From Algoriphagus lutimaris (GTDB taxonomy: Bacteria; Bacteroidota; Bacteroidia; Cytophagales; Cyclobacteriaceae), in the NCBI RefSeq assembly GCF_017051705.1, contig NZ_JAFIDJ010000002.1, positions 330,384-394,383 of the forward strand: a DNA stretch of 64,000 bases, written 5' to 3'. Numbering within the stretch: the first letter of the stretch is position 1; each line of letters starts with the position of its first letter. Of this stretch, positions 25,301-38,142 are shown piece after piece. The notes below the pieces were generated by a model. That model saw nothing but the letters and a program-made list of their open reading frames with translations. It ran no database searches and was not told where the DNA came from. Made by a program: the position numbers and the translations under genes.

Positions 25301-28267
25301 ATGCAAAATAAAGGTGTCATTGTGTTTTTGACAGCGATTATTACAGCACTTTGTCTGTATTATCTGTCATTCACATTTGTATCAAATGGCGTACAGCAAA
25401 AAGCAGAAGCTTATGCTACCGACGCATCCGGCAATGTTGATTTTGCCTTGAGAAGAGCTTATCTCGATTCAGTTTGGAGAGAGCCTGTTTATAATTTCCT
25501 AGGTGCTGACTATACCTATCAGGAAGTAAAAGAAACCGAACTTGGATTAGGTCTAGACCTTCAAGGCGGTATGCATGTTACGTTGGCGGTTTCTCCAGTT
25601 GAGATCGTGAAGGGAATTGCTGGAAATCCAAAAGATGTGGCATTCAACAAATCAGTAGATGATGCCAAGGAAATTGCAAAAACCTCTGATGACAAATTTG
25701 TAGACTTGTTTTATGCTGAATGGCAAAAAAACAGTCCAGACAAAAACCTTAGCTCCATTTTCGCAACTGCTGCCAACAGAGGAAAAATCTCTTTGGAGAC
25801 TTCAGATTCTGAAATTCTGGATATCATCGATACTGAAATTGAAAATGCAATTGAACGTTCTTTTAACATCCTAAGAACTCGTATTGACAGATTCGGTACT
25901 TCTCAGCCAAATATTCAAAGAATTCAAGGTTCTGGAAGAATCCAGATTGAACTTCCTGGTGTAGACAACCAAGAGCGCGTAAGAAACTTACTACAAGGAG
26001 TTGCTAAACTTCAATTCTGGGAAGTTGCAGAAGTAAACGAATTTGGTTCTTCTTTAGAAGCAATCAACACAGCTTATGTTGCTGATCAAAAATCTACTTC
26101 TTCAACAGAAACTGAAGTAGAGTCTACTGAACCTCTTTCTGAGGAAGACTCTTTGAGAAAGGCATTGGAAGAGCAATTGAGTCAAATTGATCCAATGAAT
26201 CCAGAGGCAGGTACCTCTCCTATTTTTAGCTTATTGAAAGCTAATTACGGACTAGTATACGACGTAAAGGACACTGTTACCATCAACAGAATCCTGAAAA
26301 GAGATGAGTACAAAGCAATGCTTCCAAGAGACATCAAGTTACTTTGGGCTGTGAAGCCTCAAGTATTGGAAGATGGGACGGAAGCATTGGAACTTTATGG
26401 AATCAAAATACCAAAAGGATCTGACCAAGCTCCTTTGGAAGGTGATGTAGTTACCGACGCAAGACAAGTTTTGGATCAAACCTCCAGACCAGCGGTATCC
26501 ATGCAAATGAATGCGGAAGGTGCTAGAAAGTGGAGAAAATTAACTGCTGAGAATATCGGTAAAAGAATCGCTGTAGTATTGGATGACTATGTATACACTG
26601 CTCCAGTTGTAAATGGTGAGATCCCAACAGGGCAATCCGAAATCTCTGGTAACTTCACGATTTTGGAAGCACAGGATTTAGCGAACATTCTCAAATCAGG
26701 TTCTCTACCTGCTCCAACACAAATTGTTGAAGAAAGCATTATCGGCCCAACTTTGGGTAAAGAAGCATTGAATCAAGGATTAATTTCCATGGTTGCCGGT
26801 TTGGCGATCGTAGTACTATTTATGGTTGCTTACTATGCTAAAGGTGGTTTGATCGCTATCTCTGCATTGGTATTCAACATCTTCTTCATTTTAGGAATCT
26901 TGGCTCAGCTTCAAACTTCATTGACCTTACCAGGTATCGCAGGTATTGTATTGACGATCGGTATGTCCATTGATGCCAACGTACTGATATTTGAACGTAT
27001 CAAAGAAGAACTTCGAAATGGCATTGGCCTGATAGCGGCAATTAATGCCGGTTACAACAAAGCATTCTCTGCAATTCTTGACTCCAACGTTACCACTTTC
27101 TTGACTGGTGCGATTTTATATGCATTGGGACAAGGTCCAGTAAAAGGCTTTGCGATTGTATTGATGATCGGTATTGCTTGTTCCTTCTTCTCTGCTGTAT
27201 TCATCACCCGAGTGATTGTCTCTTGGATGAGCAAAAAAGGAGATAAGAGTAGTATCAGTTTTGCTACTCCATTTGCAAAGAACGCATTAAGCACCTTGAG
27301 TATCGATTTCCTAGGAAAGAGAAAAGTTGCATACTTGATCTCTACCGGAATCATCATAGTGGGTCTTGCGATTGCTGGAATCAATGGATTGAAATTTGGT
27401 GTGGATTTCACTGGTGGTAGATCTTATATCGTAGCATTTGCCGAACCAGTGGCAGCCTCGGATTTGAAAACTGGTCTTGACCGTGAGTTTGATGGCTCGG
27501 TAGAAGTAAAAACTTATGGTGCTACCAACGTATTGAAAGTAACTACTTCTTACCTGATCAATGAGGATGATGATGCATCCAATGCAGAGGTAGAATCAAA
27601 GGTGAAAGAAGGAATCGCTACCGTAACTGGATTACAGTTTACAGATGATGCAGAAGACCTTACTACTGAAGAATTTGCGATTACTGGTTCCTCTAAAGTA
27701 GGAGCTACAGTAGCGGATGACATCAAAGCATCTTCTGCTGAAGCAATGGTTGTTGCTTTAATTGCCATCTTCTTATACATCTTATTGAGATTCCGTAAGT
27801 GGCAATTCTCCTTGGCCTCTATCATTGCCTTGATCCACGATACTTTGTTTGTAATTGCTGCCTTTGCGATTGCGAGTGCCTTGGGTGCAACTTTCGAAAT
27901 CGACCAAGTATTTATTGCGGCGGTCCTTACTGTAATCGGTTACTCTATTAACGATACCGTGATTGTATTTGACCGAATTAGAGAAAATATTGAAAATAGA
28001 GGTACCCATAGATTGGTGAAAGTGTTTAATGATGCGATTAACCAAACCCTAGGAAGAACTTTGATTACTTCATTTACTACTTTAATCGTGGTTCTTGTTC
28101 TATTGATCTTCGGTGGGGAAGTATTGAGAGGATTCTCATTCGCACTTCTTGTAGGTATTTTGGTGGGTACTTATTCATCTGTATTTATCGCTACTCCTAT
28201 CGTTGTGGATTTGATGAAAAGAGAAATCGATCAAGAAGAACCAAAAGAATCCAAGAAATTGGCTTAA
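25301..28267 (+). CDS. secDF: Protein translocase subunit SecDF (fused)
   Basis: A 988-residue inner-membrane protein joining SecD and SecF, the proton-driven partner of SecYEG. It has twelve expected membrane segments in two sets of six and two large periplasmic domains. The SecD signature LGLGLDLQGGMHV is near residue 80. Helix-4 motifs are IGMSIDANVLIFERIKEEL in SecD and GYSINDTVIVFDRIREN in SecF, each with the key Asp. Within the first domain is a Ser/Glu-rich insert (about residues 265-285). The fused form and large size are usual in Bacteroidota. It ends in a strong terminator. Confidence 0.97.
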   Translation: MQNKGVIVFLTAIITALCLYYLSFTFVSNGVQQKAEAYATDASGNVDFALRRAYLDSVWREPVYNFLGADYTYQEVKETELGLGLDLQGGMHVTLAVSPVEIVKGIAGNPKDVAFNKSVDDAKEIAKTSDDKFVDLFYAEWQKNSPDKNLSSIFATAANRGKISLETSDSEILDIIDTEIENAIERSFNILRTRIDRFGTSQPNIQRIQGSGRIQIELPGVDNQERVRNLLQGVAKLQFWEVAEVNEFGSSLEAINTAYVADQKSTSSTETEVESTEPLSEEDSLRKALEEQLSQIDPMNPEAGTSPIFSLLKANYGLVYDVKDTVTINRILKRDEYKAMLPRDIKLLWAVKPQVLEDGTEALELYGIKIPKGSDQAPLEGDVVTDARQVLDQTSRPAVSMQMNAEGARKWRKLTAENIGKRIAVVLDDYVYTAPVVNGEIPTGQSEISGNFTILEAQDLANILKSGSLPAPTQIVEESIIGPTLGKEALNQGLISMVAGLAIVVLFMVAYYAKGGLIAISALVFNIFFILGILAQLQTSLTLPGIAGIVLTIGMSIDANVLIFERIKEELRNGIGLIAAINAGYNKAFSAILDSNVTTFLTGAILYALGQGPVKGFAIVLMIGIACSFFSAVFITRVIVSWMSKKGDKSSISFATPFAKNALSTLSIDFLGKRKVAYLISTGIIIVGLAIAGINGLKFGVDFTGGRSYIVAFAEPVAASDLKTGLDREFDGSVEVKTYGATNVLKVTTSYLINEDDDASNAEVESKVKEGIATVTGLQFTDDAEDLTTEEFAITGSSKVGATVADDIKASSAEAMVVALIAIFLYILLRFRKWQFSLASIIALIHDTLFVIAAFAIASALGATFEIDQVFIAAVLTVIGYSINDTVIVFDRIRENIENRGTHRLVKVFNDAINQTLGRTLITSFTTLIVVLVLLIFGGEVLRGFSFALLVGILVGTYSSVFIATPIVVDLMKREIDQEEPKESKKLA

Positions 28268-28291
28268 GAGAATATAGAATTCGAGTATTGT

Positions 28292-28318
28292 AAAAGAGCG
28301 GGTTTTTCCCGCTCTTTT
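28292..28318 (+). terminator. Rho-independent terminator of secDF
   Basis: AAAAGAGCGGG (28292-28302), loop TTTTT, CCCGCTCTTTT (28308-28318), followed by more T. It lies 24 bases after the stop. Confidence 0.92.
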
Positions 28319-28439
28319 TTATACCCAAAATAAAAATTTGTTTTATAGTTAGGCAAAATCCAATTTTGGATAAAATAAAAAATATAACGCTAGAATATAT
28401 CAATACATACACATGTATTCTTGACCTTATTGGACATAT

Positions 28440-29189
28440 ATGGGAAATAGGTTTTTGGAAAATTTCATGGATTGGTATGTAATTGCCAATTACATATGCT
28501 TAATCATAGGTCTATATTTTTTCCTACAATTACCCAAAGCTCAACGGAAAAATAAAAAATTCTGGCTCCCCTTTTTGATTCTTAATTTTACCGTTTTCTA
28601 TGAGTCCATGGGTTTATTTACCCTTACTTATACTCCATTTACCAGATACATTAATGAGCTTTTGGGAAATATAGAATTTCCACGATACAACCTTTGGGTT
28701 TTTAATATAGCGAATACATTAATCGCAACAGCCCTTTACCTTTTTTTGATTAGGTCTTGGATTAGCCCAACCAAAAAGCAATATCTAACTTTGATGATTT
28801 ATGGCTTTATTATTATAGGCATAGTCTTTCAATTAACTGGAATTGAACCTCTATACTTAGATCAACCTATGCTCTTTGCCATAGCAGCTAATCTAATTTT
28901 AGTTGCTTGTGGGATCTATTATTTACAAATGATGACTGACCCATTCTATTTGGAAGTCAACCCCAAACGACTTCTCTCGTTTTGGCAGGTCACCATTCTT
29001 TTGTTTACTTATTCCTTGACCTATATTTATTCTGTATCACTTATATATCTATATAATCTAAACCCAGAATTGGCAAATCATTTGGGTAACCTCAATAGGA
29101 TCTTGGGAATCCTAAAACTTTTTATCTTAATCCTGATTATTGCATCTCCAAGACTAACACATCTATTTGATCAAGAACCTTATTCGTAA
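28440..29189 (+). CDS. Seven-helix membrane protein, paralogue A
   Basis: A 249-residue protein with seven hydrophobic segments (about residues 12-29, 41-62, 83-104, 112-134, 143-164, 179-206 and 223-240) and no signal peptide. It shares a fixed set of motifs with three neighbours (30275, 31095 and 31966): FWLPFLIL, TVFYE, NLWVFNIA, GIEPLYLDQP, LLSFWQ, TYSLTYI and a C-terminal EP. It is the most divergent of the four: TRYINELLGN replaces FKKSVNALLGN. I do not recognise a named family. It resembles a stand-alone version of the seven-helix sensor part of some histidine kinases (inference). First gene of the system described in the findings. Confidence 0.8.
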   Translation: MGNRFLENFMDWYVIANYICLIIGLYFFLQLPKAQRKNKKFWLPFLILNFTVFYESMGLFTLTYTPFTRYINELLGNIEFPRYNLWVFNIANTLIATALYLFLIRSWISPTKKQYLTLMIYGFIIIGIVFQLTGIEPLYLDQPMLFAIAANLILVACGIYYLQMMTDPFYLEVNPKRLLSFWQVTILLFTYSLTYIYSVSLIYLYNLNPELANHLGNLNRILGILKLFILILIIASPRLTHLFDQEPYS

Positions 29190-29379
29190 CCTTAGAAGAC
29201 CCAAATAGAAAAACAAAGCACTGATTCATCATTACAAATTCATTCAAAAGCATATTTTATTTAGTAAAAGGATTCAGTTCCATATAGTTATCATTGCCCT
29301 GAAGGAAAAAAAAATAGTATATTTTGAATCTTATTCTTATTACGAAATTGATTTATCACTTAACGAAAAACATTTTTCT

Positions 29380-29766
29380 ATGAAAATTTCAAAAGCGGAC
29401 TTTGAGTCCATGAAGGCAAAGTATGACAAAGAAGTAAAGAAAGGAAAACCCGCCAAAGACAAAAAAGGCAAAGACAAGACCAACCAAACTGATTGGATAT
29501 TTTTTGATAGAGAAACTTTAGAAAAATTATTGGCAAAAGCAGATCAAAACCCAAAAGTGGGAGGTATTCAATTTTATTTTACCGAATACACGGAAGAAAC
29601 AGCAAAAAAATTCTATCCGAATGAGGCTGATGAATATACCGGTCAAATGACACTGGTGATGAGAGCGGCGAATCTCAATGAAAATCAAATCACCACGATT
29701 GAGGTAGAAGCAGATGGGGAAGAGTATCAAAACAGAGGAACTCAATGCCCTTATGTTTGTCAATAA
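29380..29766 (+). CDS. Small soluble protein with C-terminal CPYxC, paralogue 1
   Basis: A 128-residue protein without signal peptide. It starts with a Lys-rich helix (ISKADFESMKAKYDKEVKKG), followed by a very basic linker, a segment DWIFFDRETLEKLLAKAD, a central strand-rich part (GGIQFYFTEYTEETAKKFYP, then YTGQMTLVMRAANL) and the tail TQCPYVCQ. The next gene encodes a homologue lacking about 25 residues of the middle. Family unknown to me. The only two cysteines sit in the CPYxC tail, which suggests metal, redox or covalent modification (inference). It lies 190 bases after the first seven-helix gene. Confidence 0.75.
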   Translation: MKISKADFESMKAKYDKEVKKGKPAKDKKGKDKTNQTDWIFFDRETLEKLLAKADQNPKVGGIQFYFTEYTEETAKKFYPNEADEYTGQMTLVMRAANLNENQITTIEVEADGEEYQNRGTQCPYVCQ

Positions 29767-29945
29767 TTTTTATTTCTTAAAAAAATGAGCGGCATTGGAT
29801 GCATCTAACCATATCTAATTGACCATAAAAACGAGAAAAGCCAAAATTAGTGTTTTTGGTATTGCCTTTACAGGGTAATATATGGCATCTTTTATCCATC
29901 AAGAACCCACTTGAAATTAAAAACACAAAAGCAATCAATTTTTCA

Positions 29946-30272
29946 ATGAACATCTCAAAAGAGGACTTCAAATCAATGAAAGCTAAGTATGAAAAAGAAG
30001 TGAAAAAAGGAAATGCCAAAGACAAAACAGATCAAGAGCCAAAGGTGGGAGGAATCCAGTTTTATTTTACAGAATACACAGAGAAAACTGCCAAGGAAAT
30101 CTATCCTGGTAATCATGCAGAATATACAGGTCAGATGACCTTAGTAATGCGGCCTGCTAATCTCAAAGATAATCAGGTAGTTTATTTAGAGCTGGTAGGG
30201 AACGATGGAGATTATGTTAATGGAACTTCCCAATGCCCTTACCGTTGCGAACCCGATCCAACTAATTCCTAA
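29946..30272 (+). CDS. Small soluble protein with C-terminal CPYxC, paralogue 2
   Basis: A 108-residue homologue of the preceding small protein: ISKEDFKSMKAKYEKEVKKG, GGIQFYFTEYTEKTAKEIYP, YTGQMTLVMRPANL, and the tail SQCPYRCEPDPTNS. It lacks the DWIFFDRETLEKLLAKAD segment and part of the basic linker. The open frame extends 32 codons upstream, but similarity to paralogue 1 begins exactly at the ATG at 29946. Its stop is two bases before the start of the second seven-helix gene, so the two are coupled. Function unknown. Confidence 0.75.
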   Translation: MNISKEDFKSMKAKYEKEVKKGNAKDKTDQEPKVGGIQFYFTEYTEKTAKEIYPGNHAEYTGQMTLVMRPANLKDNQVVYLELVGNDGDYVNGTSQCPYRCEPDPTNS

Positions 30273-30274
30273 TT

Positions 30275-31033
30275 ATGTCTAGCCCGTTTTGGACAGCTTT
30301 TGGAGACTGGTATTTATTTAATATTGATGCCTTGTTGTTGATAGGCACTTACTATTTTCTTAAACTAAAGAAAGAGGAAAAAGCCAATAGTTATTATTGG
30401 CTTCCTTTTTTAATTATTGCTTTTACTGTTTTTTATGAAAATTTAGGAGCATACACGAATTATAATTTTGAGTTCAAAAAATCCGTCAATGCACTTTTAG
30501 GGAACACAGAATTCCCGAAATACAATCTCTGGTTATATAATATTGCCAATAAGCAACTTTCAACAGTCTTATATCTTTTTTTAATTAAAACATGGCTGGA
30601 GCCTTCCCAAAAAAAATATATCAATTGGATGGTGATTGTCTTTGTGATCGTCTCTATCTTTTTACAAATCGCAGGAATTGAGCCTCTCTATCTGAATCAA
30701 CCGATCATTTTTTCCATGGGTGCCAATATGATTTTAGTTGGAAGTGGGCTTTATTTTATAGGCTTGATTACTAATCAATATTACCTGAATACCAACCCCT
30801 TAAAACTTCTTTCCTTTTGGCAAATGACTTTTCTTTTATTTACCTACTCTCTGACCTACATTAATTCGATGACGGTTATTTATCTTTATGAAATAAACCC
30901 CCAACTCGGAATTAGTATTGTTCAAATTGATCGGGTTTTGGGTATTTTAAATAAAGTGACTTTGGTATTGATTATCACTTCACCTCTTTTAAAAAAGGTT
31001 TTTGTGAAAGAACCTATTTTTGGGGTCGCTTAA
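30275..31033 (+). CDS. Seven-helix membrane protein, paralogue B
   Basis: A 252-residue, seven-helix protein like its neighbours, with YWLPFLIIAFTVFYENLG, EFKKSVNALLGNTEFP, YNLWLYNIANKQ, WLEPSQKKYINWM, GIEPLYLNQP, LLSFWQMTFLLFTYSLTYI and a final EP. It begins two bases after the small protein gene, which ties the two gene types in one transcript. It is closer to paralogues C and D than to A. Function unknown; likely sensor or membrane adaptor. Confidence 0.8.
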   Translation: MSSPFWTAFGDWYLFNIDALLLIGTYYFLKLKKEEKANSYYWLPFLIIAFTVFYENLGAYTNYNFEFKKSVNALLGNTEFPKYNLWLYNIANKQLSTVLYLFLIKTWLEPSQKKYINWMVIVFVIVSIFLQIAGIEPLYLNQPIIFSMGANMILVGSGLYFIGLITNQYYLNTNPLKLLSFWQMTFLLFTYSLTYINSMTVIYLYEINPQLGISIVQIDRVLGILNKVTLVLIITSPLLKKVFVKEPIFGVA

Positions 31034-31094
31034 AGGCCTTTAGAAAATTAATTACCCCCTCTTCTGTTAAAAAAATCAACCCCAATCTACTTTA

Positions 31095-31874
31095 ATGGAC
31101 AATAAACTGATTGAAGCCTTTTTTACAGCGTATCCATTGGATTCTATTCCAATGGATGTATTGATGATTATTGGCTTGATCTATTTTTTAAAATTGCCTA
31201 AGGAAAAAAAAACAAATATTCATTTTTGGCTTCCATTCCTGATCTTAATCTTTACTTTTTTTTATGAAAACTTCGGGAAATACACTAATTACAATTATGA
31301 ATTCAAAAAGTCAGTCAATGAATATTTTGGAAATTTCAAGTATCCCAAATTTAACCTTTGGCTGTTTAATGTAGCAAAAAGGCAAGTCGGCACCATCCTT
31401 TACTTATTATTGATCAAATCTTGGTTGGAGCCCTCTAAAAAGAAATACATCAATTGGATGATCTATCTTTTTATTATAGTTGCCAGTTTCCTTCAATTCA
31501 CAGGAATTGAACCTATTTATTTAAACCAGCCTATCATTTTTGCCATTGGTGCCAATATGATATTGATTGGAAGTGCTTTGTATTTCACTGGCATGATTAC
31601 TCATCCACAATACCTAGACAAGAATCCTTTGAAGCTGCTTTCGTTTTGGCAAATGACATTCGTCATGTTTACTTTTACCTTAACTTACATTAGTTCTGTC
31701 TCCTTAATTTATCTCTATGAAGCAGATCCAGTTTTGGGGGCTGCCTTACAACAAATTGATATCGTTATGAAGAACATCAATCTAGGGATCCTTACTTTGA
31801 CGATTGCCTCTCCCTTTCTTCCAGGGTTTTTTGAGGAAGAACCATTTTATGTATCTCACAAAACACCAGCTTAA
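31095..31874 (+). CDS. Seven-helix membrane protein, paralogue C
   Basis: A 259-residue seven-helix protein with the same motif set: FWLPFLILIFTFFYENFG, EFKKSVNEYFGN, FNLWLFNVAK, WLEPSKKKYINWM, GIEPIYLNQP, LLSFWQMTFVMFTFTLTYI. Its tail is slightly longer (EEEPFYVSHKTPA). The first loop is longer too (FTAYPLDSIPMDVLM). It follows paralogue B after 61 bases. Function unknown. Confidence 0.8.
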   Translation: MDNKLIEAFFTAYPLDSIPMDVLMIIGLIYFLKLPKEKKTNIHFWLPFLILIFTFFYENFGKYTNYNYEFKKSVNEYFGNFKYPKFNLWLFNVAKRQVGTILYLLLIKSWLEPSKKKYINWMIYLFIIVASFLQFTGIEPIYLNQPIIFAIGANMILIGSALYFTGMITHPQYLDKNPLKLLSFWQMTFVMFTFTLTYISSVSLIYLYEADPVLGAALQQIDIVMKNINLGILTLTIASPFLPGFFEEEPFYVSHKTPA

Positions 31875-31965
31875 CTTTGCTATTCTTCATTTCTTATTTA
31901 AAATTACCTTTTAACCAGTTTTATAACATAAAATGTATATGAGAAGGGAGCCTATTTTTTAAAAC

Positions 31966-32724
31966 ATGGATAGAAGTATTATTGAGCAATTTGGGAGTTG
32001 GTATCTAATCATAATTGATAGCTTTTTGATTATAGGAAGCCTCATTTTCTTCCGTCTATCCAAAGATCGTAAAACCAAGATTTTCTATTGGCTACCTTAT
32101 GTAATCTTGGCTTTCACTGTTTTTTATGAAAACTTAGGTGCTTATACAAATTATAATTTAGAATTTAAAAAGTCTGTAAATGCCCTATTGGGAAATACAG
32201 AAAATCCCAATTATAACCTTTGGGTTTTTAATATTTGTTTTCAGCAAATTACAACGATTCTTTATCTACTATTAATCCGTAATTGGCTTGAGCCTTCAAA
32301 GAAAAAATTCATTAACTGGATGCTATTGATTTTTGTATTTATCTCTTTCGCTTTACAAATCACTGGAATAGAACCTCTGTATTTGGATCAACCTATCATT
32401 TCTGCTATGGGTGCAAATATGATATTAATCGGAAGTGGATTATATTTTATGGGATTGATTACGAACCAACACTATTTAGAAACCGAACCTCTTCGATTAA
32501 TTTCTTTCTGGCAAATGACCTTTTTGCTATTTACTTACTCTTTGACATATATTAGCTCTGTTTCTTACCTGTATCTTTATGAATTCAACCCAGACTTGGG
32601 TCAAAGTATTTCACAAATTGATATGTATATGGGAATCATCAACATTGGCATATTGATCTTAATTATCGCATCCCCTTTATTACCAAAAGTTTTTTTAAGA
32701 GAACCATTTTATGAACCCATCTGA
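31966..32724 (+). CDS. Seven-helix membrane protein, paralogue D
   Basis: A 252-residue seven-helix protein: YWLPYVILAFTVFYENLG, EFKKSVNALLGNTENP, YNLWVFNICFQQ, WLEPSKKKFINWM, GIEPLYLDQP, LISFWQMTFLLFTYSLTYI and an EPF ending. Its last 14 bases overlap the start of the histidine kinase gene, so kinase translation depends on it. This is the strongest sign that these membrane proteins feed signals to the kinase (inference). Confidence 0.82.
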   Translation: MDRSIIEQFGSWYLIIIDSFLIIGSLIFFRLSKDRKTKIFYWLPYVILAFTVFYENLGAYTNYNLEFKKSVNALLGNTENPNYNLWVFNICFQQITTILYLLLIRNWLEPSKKKFINWMLLIFVFISFALQITGIEPLYLDQPIISAMGANMILIGSGLYFMGLITNQHYLETEPLRLISFWQMTFLLFTYSLTYISSVSYLYLYEFNPDLGQSISQIDMYMGIINIGILILIIASPLLPKVFLREPFYEPI

Positions 32725-33466
32725 AGATCAAATTTACGTCATCATTTTTAGCACCCTTTTTCTAGGAGGCCTGATGTCCACCTTCGTGGTTGCGATGGTC
32801 TTTATACATAGGCAAAGACAGGCGCAAAACAAACAAAAGCTTGATCAGATCAAATCTGAACATGAAAAAACCTTGCTAAACATAGAGAATGAAATTCAGC
32901 AAGACACCCTCACCCATGTGGGAAGAGAACTTCATGACAATATTGGCCAGTTGCTTTCATTGGCTAAGCTATACTTGGGTTCTTCCAAGCCAGAAAAACA
33001 ACAAGAAGGGAAAGAAACCATTAACCAAGTAATATCGGAAGTAAGAGCCTTGTCCAAAAACTTAAATTTGGACTGGGTGGAATCCCTGACAATTGAAGAA
33101 TTTATAGAACAACAATTACAAAAAATCGAATCTACAGGCTTTTGTAAAACTACATTTGAACATTCCATTGAACTTGGCGAATTACCTAAAGACCAAAAAT
33201 TGGTATTGATCCGGGTAATCCAAGAAATATTAAACAATGCGATGAAGCATGCATCACCCGAGGAAATCAAGGTAAAGATTTGGAAAGATGGTGCAACTCG
33301 AACCATCCAAATAAAAGACAATGGCAAAGGATTCGATACTTCCATCGAGTCTTCAGGTAGTGGTATGTATAATTTAAAAAAGAGAATGGAGACCATTGGG
33401 GGAGATGTTTCTATTACCTCCAGTATAGGAAATGGAACACTTATCCATTTATTGTTGCCTAATTAA
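32711..33466 (+). CDS. Sensor histidine kinase, NarL-partner type, without sensor domain
   Basis: A 251-residue kinase: one membrane helix (about residues 8-31), a coiled-coil (about 35-68), a HisKA_3-type helix with the phospho-acceptor His75 in GRELHDNIGQ, and a HATPase domain (N box IQEILNNAMKHAS, DNGKGFD, GSGMYNLKKRM). There is no PAS, GAF or periplasmic domain, so sensing must come from elsewhere, most simply from the seven-helix proteins. It overlaps the fourth of these by 14 bases and precedes its likely cognate regulator by 65 bases. Confidence 0.92.
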   Translation: MNPSEDQIYVIIFSTLFLGGLMSTFVVAMVFIHRQRQAQNKQKLDQIKSEHEKTLLNIENEIQQDTLTHVGRELHDNIGQLLSLAKLYLGSSKPEKQQEGKETINQVISEVRALSKNLNLDWVESLTIEEFIEQQLQKIESTGFCKTTFEHSIELGELPKDQKLVLIRVIQEILNNAMKHASPEEIKVKIWKDGATRTIQIKDNGKGFDTSIESSGSGMYNLKKRMETIGGDVSITSSIGNGTLIHLLLPN

Positions 33467-33480
33467 TATCCATGCAGTAA

Positions 33481-33504
33481 TTTGTACTAATCTTTTTGTA
33501 CAAA
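33481..33504 (+). promoter_or_regulatory. Inverted repeat between kinase and regulator genes
   Basis: TTTGTAC (33481-33487) and GTACAAA (33498-33504) around a 10-base A/T loop, in the 65-base gap. It may be an operator for autoregulation or a weak hairpin. There is no T-run directly after it. Confidence 0.35.
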
Positions 33505-33531
33505 GCTTACATTTTACTCTGAATACCCCAC

Positions 33532-34158
33532 ATGATCAGAATTGCTTTAGCTGATGACCATAAACTATTCGCTAAAGGCTTAGAAGGACTTTTAGAGGAA
33601 TATGACGATTTATTGATTACCGGTCTTTATCCTAATGGAAAAGAGTTGGTAGACGAAATCGCTACAGATCTTCCGGATGTGATCCTTACTGACCTGAATA
33701 TGCCCGTGCTCGATGGATTTGGAGTCCTAGAGTACGCAAAAAAAAATCACCCCGAGATTAAAGTTGTCGTATTATCCATGTATGACGAAGAAAAAATCTA
33801 TAAAAAGTGCATGCAAGACGGAGCAGATGCCTTTGTATTGAAAGATGCTGACCCCGATGAATTGGTCTATACCATCCATGAAGTATATGAAGGAAGACAC
33901 TTGCCTAATTTTCAACGGGTGATCCAGCAAGCCAACCAAAGCTCATTTTTTGATGCTTTCCGGGAAAAATTCAAATTATCCAGAAGGGAAGTACAGATCA
34001 TCAAATTGATCAAAGAAGGACGTCAGAATAAAGAAATTGCTGATGACCTCAGCTTGAGTGTGCAGACTATTGAAACCCATCGAAAAAACATACACAGCAA
34101 ATTACAAGTCTCTTCCAGGATCGAACTGGTCAACAAGGTCCAGGATATGCACCTATAA
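33532..34158 (+). CDS. LuxR/NarL-type response regulator
   Basis: A 208-residue DNA-binding regulator. The receiver has the acidic pair Asp8-Asp9, phospho-acceptor Asp54 (VILTDLNMP), and the conserved Lys in FVLKDADPDELV. The C-terminal GerE-type helix-turn-helix is LSRREVQIIKLIKEGRQNKE followed by SVQTIETHRKNIHSKL. It follows the kinase gene and would be phosphorylated by it. Its targets probably include this locus (inference). Only three bases separate its stop from the next gene. Confidence 0.94.
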   Translation: MIRIALADDHKLFAKGLEGLLEEYDDLLITGLYPNGKELVDEIATDLPDVILTDLNMPVLDGFGVLEYAKKNHPEIKVVVLSMYDEEKIYKKCMQDGADAFVLKDADPDELVYTIHEVYEGRHLPNFQRVIQQANQSSFFDAFREKFKLSRREVQIIKLIKEGRQNKEIADDLSLSVQTIETHRKNIHSKLQVSSRIELVNKVQDMHL

Positions 34159-34161
34159 ATC

Positions 34162-35208
34162 ATGAACACTCCTCTCAAAACTGCCATCGTGGGCTATGGC
34201 TCAGTTGCAGAAAAAATGCACGCTCCTTTGATTACCGTATGCCCAGACTTAGAGCTAGTGGCTGTGGTAGAACGTAATTCCAATAAAAGCAAGGAGAAAT
34301 ACCCTACTGTCACTATATACCGGAGCTTGGAGGAGTTATTGGAAAAAAGCGAGGTAGACTTAGTAGTCATCACCACCCCAAACACATTCCACTTCCCTAT
34401 GGCCAAACAATGTCTAGAAGCAGGAAAACATGTGGTGGTAGACAAACCGGTTACTATCTATTCCCATGAGGCAGAAGAACTTCAGGTATTAGCGAAGAAA
34501 ACTGGAAAAGTATGCTCGGTATTTCACAATAGGAGGTTTGATGGAGATATCATGACCATTCAAAAATTGATTCAAGAAGGAATATTAGGGGATCTGGTCT
34601 ATTTAGAATCTCATTTTGACCGATTTAGACCAGAACTTTCCGGTAATTGGAGGGAAGAAGCAGGCCCAGGGAATGGAATTACCTATGATTTAGGTTCCCA
34701 TTTGATCGATCAAGTGGTGATGATATTTGGTGCCCCTGATGCGATTCAAGCAGATATCCAAAAACAAAGAAAAGGGGCGATGGCTGATGATCATTTCGAC
34801 ATTGTCATGCATTATGAGAACTTCAAGGCCAGGGTAACAGCTGGAGTCTTGGTCAATGCTCCTACTCCAAAGTATCTACTGTTGGGGCAGAATGGTTCTT
34901 ATTTGAAGTTTGGTATGGACGTTCAAGAGCAAGCTTTCAAAGAAGGTATCAAGCCAGAGGGTACCGATTGGGGAGTAGAACCTGAGGAAAATTGGGGAAA
35001 AATATTCCTCAAGTCTGAAACTAAATCCTACCCTAGTGTCCCGGGCGATTATAGGATTTATTACTCTAATGTAGCCGATGCCATTTTGAATGACAGCCCA
35101 CTAAACGTCACCATCCCACAGACAATCAGTGTTTTAAAAATGATAGAAGCTTCTTTCCAAAGTTCTAAAGAACAACGAACCATCTCCAAAGCTGAAGGAA
35201 AATGGTAA
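34162..35208 (+). CDS. Gfo/Idh/MocA family oxidoreductase
   Basis: A 348-residue NAD(P)-dependent oxidoreductase. The N-terminal Rossmann motif is AIVGYGSVAEKMHAPLI, with EKPV-like VVDKPVTIYSHEAEEL and the catalytic-region YDLGSHLIDQVVMIFG. The C-terminal domain is the usual beta sheet. It probably acts on a sugar or inositol derivative in the cytoplasm; the substrate cannot be told. It starts three bases after the response regulator, so it shares its transcript, but a functional link to the signalling genes is not shown. Confidence 0.92.
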   Translation: MNTPLKTAIVGYGSVAEKMHAPLITVCPDLELVAVVERNSNKSKEKYPTVTIYRSLEELLEKSEVDLVVITTPNTFHFPMAKQCLEAGKHVVVDKPVTIYSHEAEELQVLAKKTGKVCSVFHNRRFDGDIMTIQKLIQEGILGDLVYLESHFDRFRPELSGNWREEAGPGNGITYDLGSHLIDQVVMIFGAPDAIQADIQKQRKGAMADDHFDIVMHYENFKARVTAGVLVNAPTPKYLLLGQNGSYLKFGMDVQEQAFKEGIKPEGTDWGVEPEENWGKIFLKSETKSYPSVPGDYRIYYSNVADAILNDSPLNVTIPQTISVLKMIEASFQSSKEQRTISKAEGKW

Positions 35209-35259
35209 TCTTTTAGGTTTGGCTTCTTCTTGGTGTATTAGGTTAAAAACTAAGCCACC

Positions 35260-35352
35260 ATGAAATCGAGCATTACTAAGATCGCGCTTGGTGAAAATTA
35301 TTTAAAATGCGAGATTCCATGTGACCAAAAGATCCAAGCTAAAATCACATGA
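35260..35352 (+). CDS. Possible 30-residue leader ORF
   Basis: ATG at 35260 to TGA at 35350. The product MKSSITKIALGENYLKCEIP continues for ten more residues with no recognisable features. Its stop overlaps the start of the secreted peptide gene (ATGA), which would allow coupled translation. Support is only this overlap; it could be chance. Confidence 0.2.
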   Translation: MKSSITKIALGENYLKCEIPCDQKIQAKIT

Positions 35353-35453
35353 AAAAAGTTTTCTTATTAGCATTTGCACTAGTAGGCTTTATATCAATCT
35401 CCCAAGCTCAGGTTGCAGTAGGAGGAGTTGGTGTCAAGTATACATTTAGATAA
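35349..35453 (+). CDS. Very small secreted peptide (34 residues)
   Basis: ATG at 35349 (after AAAATCAC) to TAA at 35451. The product has a clear signal peptide, MKKVFLLAFALVGFISISQA, followed by only 14 residues (QVAVGGVGVKYTFR). The ending VGVKYTFR resembles the final strand of an outer-membrane barrel, so the gene may be the remnant of a larger outer-membrane protein after internal deletion, or a genuine small peptide. A good terminator 17 bases downstream supports a real transcript. No family recognised. Confidence 0.5.
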   Translation: MKKVFLLAFALVGFISISQAQVAVGGVGVKYTFR

Positions 35454-35469
35454 ACAAACCAACTAAATT

Positions 35470-35504
35470 AAAGGCCATCATACCCAAGTTATGATGACCT
35501 TTTT
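35470..35504 (+). terminator. Rho-independent terminator after the small peptide gene
   Basis: Arms AAAGG-C-CATCATA (35470-35482) and TATGATG-A-CCTTT (35490-35502) with one mismatch and a 7-base loop, followed by T. Confidence 0.8.
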
Positions 35505-35579
35505 CAATTTGGGACAAGAGAATACTAGTTTTTAGAGATTTAGAACTTTTTTAGCTTCATAGATATCAATATGTTTCTT

Positions 35580-35587
35580 TATTTTTG
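35580..35587 (+). promoter_or_regulatory. -7 box five bases before the glyS start
   Basis: TATTTTTG followed by CGCCC and ATG at 35593. A transcript from this box would have almost no leader. Confidence 0.5.
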
Positions 35588-35592
35588 CGCCC

Positions 35593-37059
35593 ATGGCAAA
35601 AACAGCAACTCCGGCGGAAAACGCCCAATTGAAAGATATTATTTCCCATGCCAAAGAGTATGGTTTTGTTTACCCAAGTTCTGAGATCTATGACGGGCTT
35701 CAAGCTGTCTATGATTATGGAGCATATGGGGTAGAATTAAAGAATAACTTGAAAAGACTTTGGTGGGAAACCATGACCAGAGTCCAAGATAATATTGTAG
35801 GGATCGATGCAGCCATCTTTATGCATCCTACTACCTGGAAAGCTTCGGGGCATGTGGATTCCTTTAATGATCCAATGATCGATAACAAAGATTCTAAAAA
35901 ACGATATAGAGCTGATGTGTTGATCGAGGAACATGCTGCTACCTTTGAAAGAGCCGGCGAACTAGAAAAAGCCAACTCTTTAACTGGTGCCTTGGCTAGA
36001 ATGCTGGAGGCAGAAGACTTAGCTGGCGTGAGAGACCTAATCATCAATGAGGAAATCAAATGTCCTATTTCCGGTACTTCCAACTGGACAGATGTACGTC
36101 AATTTAATTTGATGTTCTCGACGCAGGTTGGTTCTTTGGCGGAGGATGCATCCACCATTTACCTAAGGCCTGAAACTGCCCAAGGTATTTTTGTAAACTT
36201 CCTGAATGTGCAGAAAACAGCCAGAATGAAAGTTCCTTTTGGAATAGCTCAAATCGGAAAAGCATTCAGAAATGAGATTGTGGCCCGCCAGTTCATCTTC
36301 CGTATGCGTGAATTCGAACAAATGGAAATGCAATTTTTCGTGCGACCTGGTACTGAATTGGATTGGTACAAGCAATGGGCGGAGATGAGAATGAAATGGC
36401 ATTTGGCTCTTGGAACTCCTGAAGATAAGTTGAGAAAGCATGACCATGAAAAATTGGCTCACTACGCCAACGCCGCCATGGATATTGAATATGAATTCCC
36501 ATTTGGATTCAAAGAAGTAGAAGGAATTCACTCCAGAACTGATTTTGATTTGAAATCCCATCAGGAATTCTCTAAAAAGAAACAGCAATACTTTGATCCA
36601 GAGGTCAATCAGAATTACATTCCTTATGTAATTGAGACTTCAATCGGAGCTGATAGATTGTTCTTACTGACGCTTTGCAACGCATACACTGAAGAAAAGA
36701 CAGAAGAGAAAAGCAGAACGTATTTGAAACTACATCCTGCCATTGCACCAGTAAAAGCTGCCATACTTCCAATCACTAAAAAGGATGGCCTTCCTGAAAA
36801 AGGAAAAGAGATCGTAGAGTTACTAAAGTATGATTTCAATATCATTTATGAAGATGCTGCTTCTATTGGAAAGCGCTATACAAGACAGGATTTAATCGGA
36901 ACGCCTTTCTGTATCGCTGTAGACCACCAAACTTTAGAAGACAATACGGTAACAATTCGTCATAGAGATACTACGGAACAGGAGCGAGTGCCAATCTCAG
37001 AACTTCATGGAAGAATCGCTGAAGCTACCAGTTTTAGAAGGGTATTTGAAAAGCTGTAA
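35593..37059 (+). CDS. glyS: Glycine--tRNA ligase (dimeric type)
   Basis: A 488-residue class II synthetase of the alpha-2 type, as in Bacteroidota, archaea and eukaryotes, rather than the GlyQ/GlyS tetramer. Motif 1 region is YGAYGVELKNNLKRLWW, motif 2 is FRNEIVARQFIFRMREFEQM, motif 3 is ETSIGADRLFL, and the C-terminal anticodon-binding domain includes AIAPVKAAILPI and IGTPFCIAVDHQTLEDN. Length is typical. It is a single gene with its own promoter-like box and terminator. Confidence 0.97.
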   Translation: MAKTATPAENAQLKDIISHAKEYGFVYPSSEIYDGLQAVYDYGAYGVELKNNLKRLWWETMTRVQDNIVGIDAAIFMHPTTWKASGHVDSFNDPMIDNKDSKKRYRADVLIEEHAATFERAGELEKANSLTGALARMLEAEDLAGVRDLIINEEIKCPISGTSNWTDVRQFNLMFSTQVGSLAEDASTIYLRPETAQGIFVNFLNVQKTARMKVPFGIAQIGKAFRNEIVARQFIFRMREFEQMEMQFFVRPGTELDWYKQWAEMRMKWHLALGTPEDKLRKHDHEKLAHYANAAMDIEYEFPFGFKEVEGIHSRTDFDLKSHQEFSKKKQQYFDPEVNQNYIPYVIETSIGADRLFLLTLCNAYTEEKTEEKSRTYLKLHPAIAPVKAAILPITKKDGLPEKGKEIVELLKYDFNIIYEDAASIGKRYTRQDLIGTPFCIAVDHQTLEDNTVTIRHRDTTEQERVPISELHGRIAEATSFRRVFEKL

Positions 37060-37224: not shown

Positions 37225-38142
37225 TTAGTCTTTAGTAGGACAACCAGAATAAACAATCGATTCAAGGTCTCCTTTTAAAGAGTATGGTCCTTCGTCGATA
37301 TCCAAAGTTTCAGGATCATCTACTAAATCCTCACCGTTAATAGCAACTATTTTAGCATTTGTCCAAATGTTTGCAAGACCGTCTTTAGCCGAGGAAGGTC
37401 CACAATCAGGCATTAAACCTTCAAAAGCAAAGGTCGTAGGTTCCCCTGAAGAACAGCTTACTGGTCCAGTCCAATGAAATACTGTTCCATTTCCAGTTAC
37501 AGTATAGCTTTTACCATCTGCACCAACATAAGAGCCTTGATTAGGTATATCAATATTTATTTGTGGGAATGTAAAATCAATTGAGACCTCAGCTTCTTCA
37601 CTGTAACTATAAGAAAATACTACATCCACTTCTGTTTCTCCGATTGTTGCCTCATAAGTAAATGATTCTTCATCACAATTTGAGCAATCCTCTACCTCAA
37701 CAGTAAACTCAACATTTTGAACTCCTCCTTGACCAGACACTTTCCATCTAAACAAATAAGTGCCTACCTCATACCCTGATAAATTTCCAGAAACACCTGA
37801 AGAAGCCTGAGATTGTTGAAATACCTGAACCCATTCCCCATTTACAAATTCTTGAACTTGAACAGTGCGATTTCCTGTAAAACCTGTACCTCCAAAAGTG
37901 AATAAAATAGCATCTCCAAGGCAAACTTTTTCAGTATATGTCAAATTAAAGTTTCCACTTTCAGAAACCATAGCATTTTCAAATCTTGAAATTTCAAAAG
38001 GACTTAAAGTAAATCCCGACTGATCTGATTTAGCCAAGGTATTGGTCAGATCATCATTTTCATAGGTAGCCATTTGGCTACAGGCTCCAAAGAGCAATGC
38101 TGAGATCACTAACCCCAGCAGTTTTATTGTAAAAATTTTCAT
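37225..38142 (-). CDS. Hypothetical lipoprotein with Ig/PKD-like segments
   Basis: A 305-residue exported protein with a lipoprotein signal ending LLFGAC (Cys21). The mature part is acidic, rich in Gly, Thr and aromatic residues, and beta-like. Residues about 65-150 resemble an Ig or PKD-type fold (LTYTEKVCLGDAILFTFGG, then GTYLFRWKV). A CSNC pair precedes a second beta-rich part (about 155-300) with more cysteines. I do not recognise the family. The 138 bases upstream, up to the divergent desaturase gene, are extremely A/T-rich. It is probably surface-exposed. Confidence 0.75.
   Translation of the reverse strand: MKIFTIKLLGLVISALLFGACSQMATYENDDLTNTLAKSDQSGFTLSPFEISRFENAMVSESGNFNLTYTEKVCLGDAILFTFGGTGFTGNRTVQVQEFVNGEWVQVFQQSQASSGVSGNLSGYEVGTYLFRWKVSGQGGVQNVEFTVEVEDCSNCDEESFTYEATIGETEVDVVFSYSYSEEAEVSIDFTFPQINIDIPNQGSYVGADGKSYTVTGNGTVFHWTGPVSCSSGEPTTFAFEGLMPDCGPSSAKDGLANIWTNAKIVAINGEDLVDDPETLDIDEGPYSLKGDLESIVYSGCPTKD

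Follow-up and report, generated by a model that had tools for sequence, protein, structure and literature searches.

The 64,000-nucleotide stretch of the Algoriphagus lutimaris genome analyzed here (contig NZ_JAFIDJ010000002.1 of RefSeq assembly GCF_017051705.1, positions 330,384 to 394,383), referred to below as the window, carries on its forward strand at 28440-34158 a putative signalling gene cassette in which four related seven-transmembrane-helix (7TM) proteins (A to D) and two small proteins (small 1 and small 2) are encoded together with a histidine kinase and a response regulator, in the order A, small 1, small 2, B, C, D, kinase, regulator. A preliminary description had listed these open reading frames (ORFs) in this order, with 7TM paralogues of 249-259 residues, two CPYxC proteins and a one-helix kinase that lacks a sensor domain, and all of these points were confirmed. 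The features of the locus are as follows.

28440..29189, forward strand: 7TM protein A, 249 residues; first gene after secDF
29380..29766, forward strand: small protein 1, 128 residues; C-terminal CPYVC
29946..30272, forward strand: small protein 2, 108 residues; C-terminal CPYRC; lacks a middle segment of small 1
30275..31033, forward strand: 7TM protein B, 252 residues
31095..31874, forward strand: 7TM protein C, 259 residues
31966..32724, forward strand: 7TM protein D, 252 residues; modelled (predicted local distance difference test, pLDDT, 90.9)
32711..33466, forward strand: histidine kinase, 251 residues; single membrane helix near the N-terminus; lacks a sensor domain; H75 within HDNIGQ
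33532..34158, forward strand: response regulator, 208 residues; receiver D54, GerE output
34162..35208, forward strand: Gfo/Idh/MocA-type oxidoreductase, 3 bases 3' of the regulator; possible operon member
28295..28320, forward strand: terminator-like hairpin and T run 3' of secDF, from reading of the sequence; a scan does not list it
29318..29326, forward strand: promoter-like box TATATTTTG of Bacteroidota -7 type, before small 1

The length of small 2 is counted from the ATG at 29946, the ORF list having a more upstream GTG start. In the 5' part of the cassette, A lies 190 bases from small 1, small 1 lies 179 bases from small 2, and small 2 ends 2 bases before B; in the 3' part the B-C and C-D gaps are 61 and 91 bases, D and the kinase gene overlap by 14 bases, and the regulator follows the kinase after 65 bases and precedes the oxidoreductase by 3. 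The couplings earlier cited in favor of one transcript, namely the 2-base gap and the 14-base overlap, are present, but because the gaps flanking small 1 and the B-C and C-D gaps are larger, a single transcript is most likely only from small 2 to the regulator, and the claim does not extend to A and small 1.

Protein families of the cassette

The kinase and the regulator are ordinary. The kinase matches HATPase_c at 52.7 bits and HisKA_3 at 23.6 bits, just below the cut-off of 24, with H75 as phospho-acceptor, and its best NCBIfam model is UhpB (89.3 bits against a cut-off of 408); about eight residues precede its only helix. The regulator matches Response_reg (80.8) and GerE (62.9), so that the pair belongs among the two-component systems with a HisKA_3 kinase and a NarL-type regulator.

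The 7TM proteins A to D align over their full length, B, C and D being 49-50% identical to A, share the motifs GIEP(L/I)YL, SFWQ, LTYI, NLW and FYE, and are the only four members of their family found in the whole host genome. None of them matches a Pfam or NCBIfam family. Among 56 members drawn from the phylum Bacteroidota, nine Pfam families, including Cation_efflux, MnhB, SDF and HlyIII, match one member each (best E 0.00049), and one NCBIfam family matches one member. We take these single-member matches as chance and reject a known enzyme or transporter family for the 7TM protein, an outcome that the preliminary description had named as one that would count against it; the library searches gave no real family match.

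A gapped alignment of small 1 and small 2 over their full length gives 53% identity (E 9e-43), and neither matches a Pfam or NCBIfam family. For 37 members drawn from the phylum, one Pfam and two NCBIfam families match one member each (best E 6.4e-05), again taken as chance. Profile searches of the PDB with both families found nothing significant, the best sequence match of the 7TM family being cyanorhodopsin with an E of 0.15 over 59 positions. The defence and phage libraries likewise hold no match for the 7TM or small proteins (the phage query being A, small 1, small 2 and D); the defence library gave weak matches for the kinase and the regulator. Neither family was found in these libraries, and nothing on the families, on a split 7TM layout that includes a small partner or on the cassette itself was found in one open library of papers, subscription papers and preprints being outside the scope of that search. 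The suggestion that this is an undescribed signalling unit is supported.

Distribution and linkage

One scan of a genome collection with two peptide patterns, which leave distant relatives beyond reach, gave 18 loci, 17 from Algoriphagus and one from an uncultured Cyclobacteriaceae bacterium (hereafter the Algoriphagus set). The cassette in this set starts with a small gene, followed by between one and three intact 7TM genes, a kinase and a regulator, and in all 15 loci that hold both flanks it has secDF on one side and the oxidoreductase on the other. It is common here for more than one 7TM paralogue to precede a single kinase, in keeping with the earlier proposal that the paralogues share a kinase; that they might respond to different ligands, as had also been suggested, would be a further possibility. 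Two loci have other orders: 7TM, kinase, divergent 7TM, kinase, regulator in L010, and 7TM, kinase, 7TM, regulator in L017. In all 19 cases in this set the end of the small gene is within 40 bases of the start of a 7TM gene, and in 11 of them the gap is 2 bases.

Beyond this set, a draw of 148 genomes from the host family contained the 7TM family in 15 (profile A4) and the small family in 39 (profile A3); 8 of the 13 weak 7TM matches in other genera lie within 1.5 kilobases (kb) of a small match. In the Bacteroidota sample, profiles built from the family only detect the 7TM protein in 46 of 296 genomes (A6) and the small protein in 19 of 296 (A5), and wider profiles detect them in 92 of 392 (A7) and 71 of 392 (A8), respectively. 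Seven to nine candidates were scored per genome for A6, A7 and A8, and at most 14 for A5, and copies per genome may be missed. Forty stretches from the host family and 40 from the phylum were fetched, and the reading of the family loci covers part of the former; L092, itself listed in part, has a 7TM match and no small match. The core unit across the phylum is a small gene, a 7TM gene, a kinase and a regulator, the many-paralogue form being an elaboration near Algoriphagus, and the secDF neighbourhood is not kept.

The cleaner test of linkage is the reverse one, starting from the family-only small profile A5. All 14 of its matches outside the host family have a 7TM gene directly downstream (12 detected by the family-only profile A6, the other two by A7), and 13 are followed by a kinase, the remaining locus ending about 55 bases further on. 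When the wider profiles are used, a 7TM match follows within 1.2 kb downstream of 95 of 106 small matches, at a median gap of 63 bases, 96 of the 150 7TM matches listed have a small match upstream, and 70 of the 71 small-positive genomes are also 7TM-positive (Fisher p 1.5e-56, ignoring relatedness). This A7/A8 co-occurrence is partly circular, as most A8 rows had been chosen for their place upstream of 7TM genes, and the searched genomes themselves supplied some A7 and A8 rows. Of the 48 7TM ORFs in the 40 phylum loci, 40 have a kinase within the next 3 kb downstream and 35 have a downstream regulator. Small proteins and kinases therefore do accompany the 7TM proteins in other genomes, a point on which the preliminary description had made its reading depend. 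The kinases are of more than one class: besides HisKA_3 kinases, L179 has one of the His_kinase type together with a LytTR regulator, and L193 and L200 have PAS hybrid kinases, as expected of a portable sensory half.

Co-inheritance was examined in 66 loci with a 7TM gene and a kinase, 49 of which have all four parts and 21 of these 49 lie outside the host family. Tree-distance correlations are 0.77-0.85 across the 49 loci. For the 21 they are 0.74 for kinase and regulator, 0.70 for 7TM protein and kinase and 0.54 for 7TM protein and regulator, and the small protein follows the 7TM protein at 0.45, the kinase at 0.34 and the regulator at 0.19. That the small protein tracks the 7TM protein best fits a chain of small protein, 7TM protein, kinase and regulator; gene order alone could also give the same pattern.

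Structure and conservation of the two families

The preliminary description had assigned seven helices from hydrophobic segments, and AlphaFold2, run on protein D with 30 aligned proteins, gave a confident seven-helix bundle (mean pLDDT 90.9, predicted template modelling score 0.88) with helices at residues 12-30, 39-63, 85-107, 110-133, 143-166, 179-207 and 209-238. The loops that follow helices 1 and 3, together with the tail, are rich in Lys and Arg, and therefore, by the positive-inside rule, the N-terminus would be outside and the C-terminus inside. Foldseek found no match to this model at E ≤0.001. Of the best 50 rows, 45 are G-protein-coupled receptors (GPCRs), at E values of 0.27-1.1 and TM-scores by query length of 0.20-0.50; membership in the GPCR fold is thus not indicated (best E to a solved receptor 0.27), and the likeness of the modelled fold is weak, at most a shared layout.

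The best kept positions among the 56 phylum members are F181 (51), W182 (49), N84 (46) and E55 (40). With sides assigned by the same rule, E55 and N84 sit on the outer half and F181-W182 at the inner start of helix 6. Conserved polar residues are few, and no conserved His is found among the best kept positions. Within the Algoriphagus set, conservation is highest in outer loop 2 (GIEPLYLNQP), helices 5, 6 and 2, and outer loop 1, and the median identity between loci is 0.55 for the 7TM proteins (paralogues included), 0.65 for the small protein, 0.70 for the kinase and 0.69 for the regulator; for the flanking genes it is 0.69 (oxidoreductase), 0.86 (secDF) and 0.95 (glyS). Among the 150 7TM matches listed, the open frames span 187-290 residues and none is a 7TM-kinase fusion.

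Receptor subtypes defined by position were considered and rejected. On the tree, the kinase-adjacent 7TM proteins need 12 changes compared with a shuffled mean of 12.1, and they form no separate line; receptors have therefore changed places, and more than one of them seems to be acceptable to the kinase. The 7TM proteins that follow a small gene are weakly clustered (7 changes versus 10.9, with 7 of 500 shuffles as low).

The best kept positions of the small family (n=37) are P124 (34), Y66 (33), G62 (32), the P125 column (28), C123 (26) and C127 (24). The extreme C-terminal tail reads N-x-G-x-x-C-P-P-x-C or takes a Cys-less form in which N-x-G and P-P are retained, such as MNYGNIGRPPSLIY of L180. 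A proline-type tail, by a broad pattern, ends the ORF upstream of 40 of the 48 7TM ORFs in the phylum loci, compared with 22% of 486 other ORFs; strict CPxxC is found in 14 of the 48, compared with 3% of the others, and the Cys pair is therefore not universal. A simple hydropathy rule was applied to 105 distinct small ORFs: it detects no hydrophobic N-terminus in 58 of the 60 from the host family, whereas 24 of the 45 from elsewhere carry either such an N-terminus or a lipobox. The small proteins of the window show no export signal by this rule, and no exporter or processing gene is found among the genes from 28440 to 35208. The gene before the cassette, secDF, is a general export factor.

Some loci show further small ORFs. 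Two tandem lipoprotein-like small proteins precede one 7TM gene in L154 (773-1965), and a lipobox-type ORF ending in CRPNCPSSL lies upstream of the 7TM gene of a divergent cassette in L109 (6726-7310). Three tandem ORFs of 91-93 residues that look like small Cys-containing proteins and start with MN(L/I)INPAL(P/K)CGGEEKCNI adjoin the cassette in L077 (8190-9140); the first of them has no Pfam match.

Proposed function

We suggest that the cassette is probably a split receptor kinase, composed of a 7TM sensory half, a one-helix kinase, a NarL-type regulator and a small partner or ligand. With no sensor domain and a mere eight or so residues ahead of its helix, the kinase must take its input through a partner. 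We propose the 7TM protein for this role because it is the most constant candidate, because it precedes several kinase classes and because the D gene overlaps the kinase gene. With its N-terminus outside and its C-terminus inside, it would pair in the membrane with the kinase, the catalytic half, whose output would pass through the regulator. The small protein may be the dedicated partner of the receptor, a folded domain that presents the conserved C-terminal tail, which would dock on the 7TM protein as a ligand or co-sensor. In Algoriphagus the receptor, sometimes with the small gene, has been duplicated, so that several receptors, four in the window, would feed one kinase. The grounds for linking 7TM protein and kinase are their gene order, their co-inheritance and the occurrence of the 7TM family with kinases of several classes, and we infer from these the pairing and the direction of signalling; the role of the small protein and the docking of its tail are likewise proposals.

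Several observations weigh against a split receptor kinase of this form. Eight of the 48 7TM ORFs in the phylum loci have no kinase profile match (two of them, in L193 and L200, adjoin the PAS hybrid kinases), and 54 of the 150 7TM matches listed have no small match upstream. In L097, L100 and L110 the 7TM gene that comes after secDF is accompanied by no small gene and no kinase; there it is followed by an ORF that, from its N-terminus, we take to be S-adenosylmethionine synthetase-like. The small proteins seem not to be all on the same side of the membrane, which fits a single docking site badly, and their model is poor (pLDDT 61.9), making fold matches meaningless. The correlation between regulator and small protein was reached by 112 of 999 shuffles, and shared descent and linkage alone could give the distance correlations.

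The same data bear on three other readings. The 7TM protein might sense lipid, redox state or envelope stress, with the small protein inhibiting or adapting the kinase in a layout like that of LiaF and LiaS. A kinase with almost no outer part, small proteins that carry no signal in the host family, a CPxxC tail that could be sensitive to redox state or metal, and the position next to secDF in the Algoriphagus-set loci with both flanks would all suit such an envelope sensor; we nevertheless find it rather doubtful, given that the Cys pair is missing in many members outside the host family, that the secDF neighbourhood is not conserved across the phylum and that the small protein tracks the 7TM protein better than the kinase. 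Slightly less probable, and in our view unlikely, is that the small protein or a cut C-terminal piece of it leaves the cell as a pheromone read by the 7TM protein. A ligand-like gene does stand directly before receptor genes and is duplicated with them (small 1 and small 2 in the window; L005, L008, L072 and L074), its extreme C-terminus is conserved, about half of the small ORFs outside the host family have a hydrophobic N-terminus or lipobox, and the best kept 7TM regions in Algoriphagus lie on the outer half. The small proteins of the window, however, have no signal and the cassette has no exporter or processing gene, a domain is conserved besides the tail, and the lipobox forms would stay anchored. 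The broader form of this idea, a phylum-wide communication system of Bacteroidota in which the small-protein tail family is the signal and the new seven-helix receptors are separate from, and portable between, histidine kinases, we hold to be equally improbable; if true, it would parallel, in bacteria, the arrangement of a ligand, a seven-helix receptor and an effector that is a separate protein.

Much the least probable is that the 7TM protein is an enzyme or transporter whose flux or state is sensed by the kinase. Transport-coupled kinases exist, UhpC being the sensor of UhpB (PMC7607045), and E55 and N84 are conserved polar residues. Against this are the library matches confined to single members, the small number of conserved polar residues with no His among the best kept positions, and the lack of a significant fold match.

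If the cassette is a split receptor kinase, it is two-component signalling with a separate sensor, and what is new is the two protein families and the split layout. The receptor family is carried by 92 of 392 sampled phylum genomes, about a quarter. Free seven-helix receptors that occur with several kinase classes and having a dedicated small partner would offer a way to study how a signal passes from a receptor to a separate kinase in the membrane, and might be a signalling language of Bacteroidota.

Comparison with known systems

The closest layout is that of UhpC, a separate membrane sensor that senses outside and stimulates the membrane kinase UhpB (PMC7607045). The UhpC-UhpB-UhpA system shares with the cassette a separate membrane sensor and a membrane kinase, the cassette side of this likeness resting on gene order and co-inheritance; it differs in that UhpC is a major facilitator superfamily (MFS) protein with no small partner, whereas the 7TM protein has no MFS match. 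UhpB also has a large membrane part of its own. LiaS, for its part, has a short outer part. It is controlled by the accessory protein LiaF (PMC3543457), a different kind of accessory protein and a negative regulator, in a system that has no 7TM receptor.

The 7TMR-DISM proteins (PF07695) resemble the proposed receptor as a seven-helix sensory module of bacterial signalling proteins. Such receptors are fused to a signalling domain and carry an outer domain, whereas the 7TM protein of the cassette is free; the 7TMR-DISM open frames of the host genome have 493-1017 codons. By sequence, none of the 56 7TM members matches 7TMR-DISM_7TM at E 0.01, and hhalign gives a probability of 8.7% and a pair E of 0.0039, in register over helices 1-4. 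In HisKA_7TM (PF16927) kinases and in the LytS-type BtsS, a membrane sensor of several helices also drives a kinase, but sensor and kinase are in one chain. HisKA_7TM is matched neither by the 7TM proteins of the window nor by the 56 from the phylum (hhalign probability 0.4%). The host genome encodes one HisKA_7TM and two 7TMR-DISM proteins (G000:C1:1780510, G000:C1:29779 and G000:C8:583892), and profile comparison does not join them to the 7TM family of the cassette. Sensory rhodopsin is a seven-helix receptor complexed with a separate membrane transducer; protein D differs from microbial rhodopsins in having no retinal lysine in helix 7 (residues 209-238).

Promoter, composition and neighbouring genes

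The small genes of the Algoriphagus set share an upstream TATCTTTT(G) box, 8 columns agreeing in at least 75% of 22 aligned rows. It resembles the -7 consensus of Bacteroidota sigma-A, TAnnTTTG (PMC9723704). In the window the box precedes small 1 at 29318, and small 1 is therefore probably driven by its own promoter; small 2 has a partial form only and A has none in the same alignment. Twelve matches to the box were found in the window against 8.1 expected, so a single match is not rare. The promoter scan found 20 sigma-70 type promoters against 27.4 expected. A search of 28000-35700 for RNA families gave no match.

The cassette had also been described as more A/T-rich than its surroundings, possibly through acquisition. 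Its G+C content is indeed about 0.33 compared with about 0.39 nearby, but acquisition is unsupported: G+C at the third codon position is 0.31-0.38 in A to D, 0.335 in secDF and 0.38-0.41 in the oxidoreductase and glyS, and is thus native, and the place of the cassette is kept in all 15 Algoriphagus-set loci holding both flanks. As the third-position values of A to D are near those of their neighbours, the first and second codon positions account for most of the difference, that is, hydrophobic residues do. Plasmid copies were sought for two phylum members and gave no match.

In 16 of 17 Algoriphagus-set loci, and for 13 of 34 regulators in the host-family loci, an oxidoreductase-like gene begins no more than 80 bases from the regulator, often with an overlap of 4, and the oxidoreductase may be a target or an operon member of the cassette. 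Farther downstream, on the reverse strand at 37225-38142, a lipoprotein-like ORF with no Pfam match comes after glyS, and ORFs with a similar start follow glyS in L007, L008, L016 and L018.

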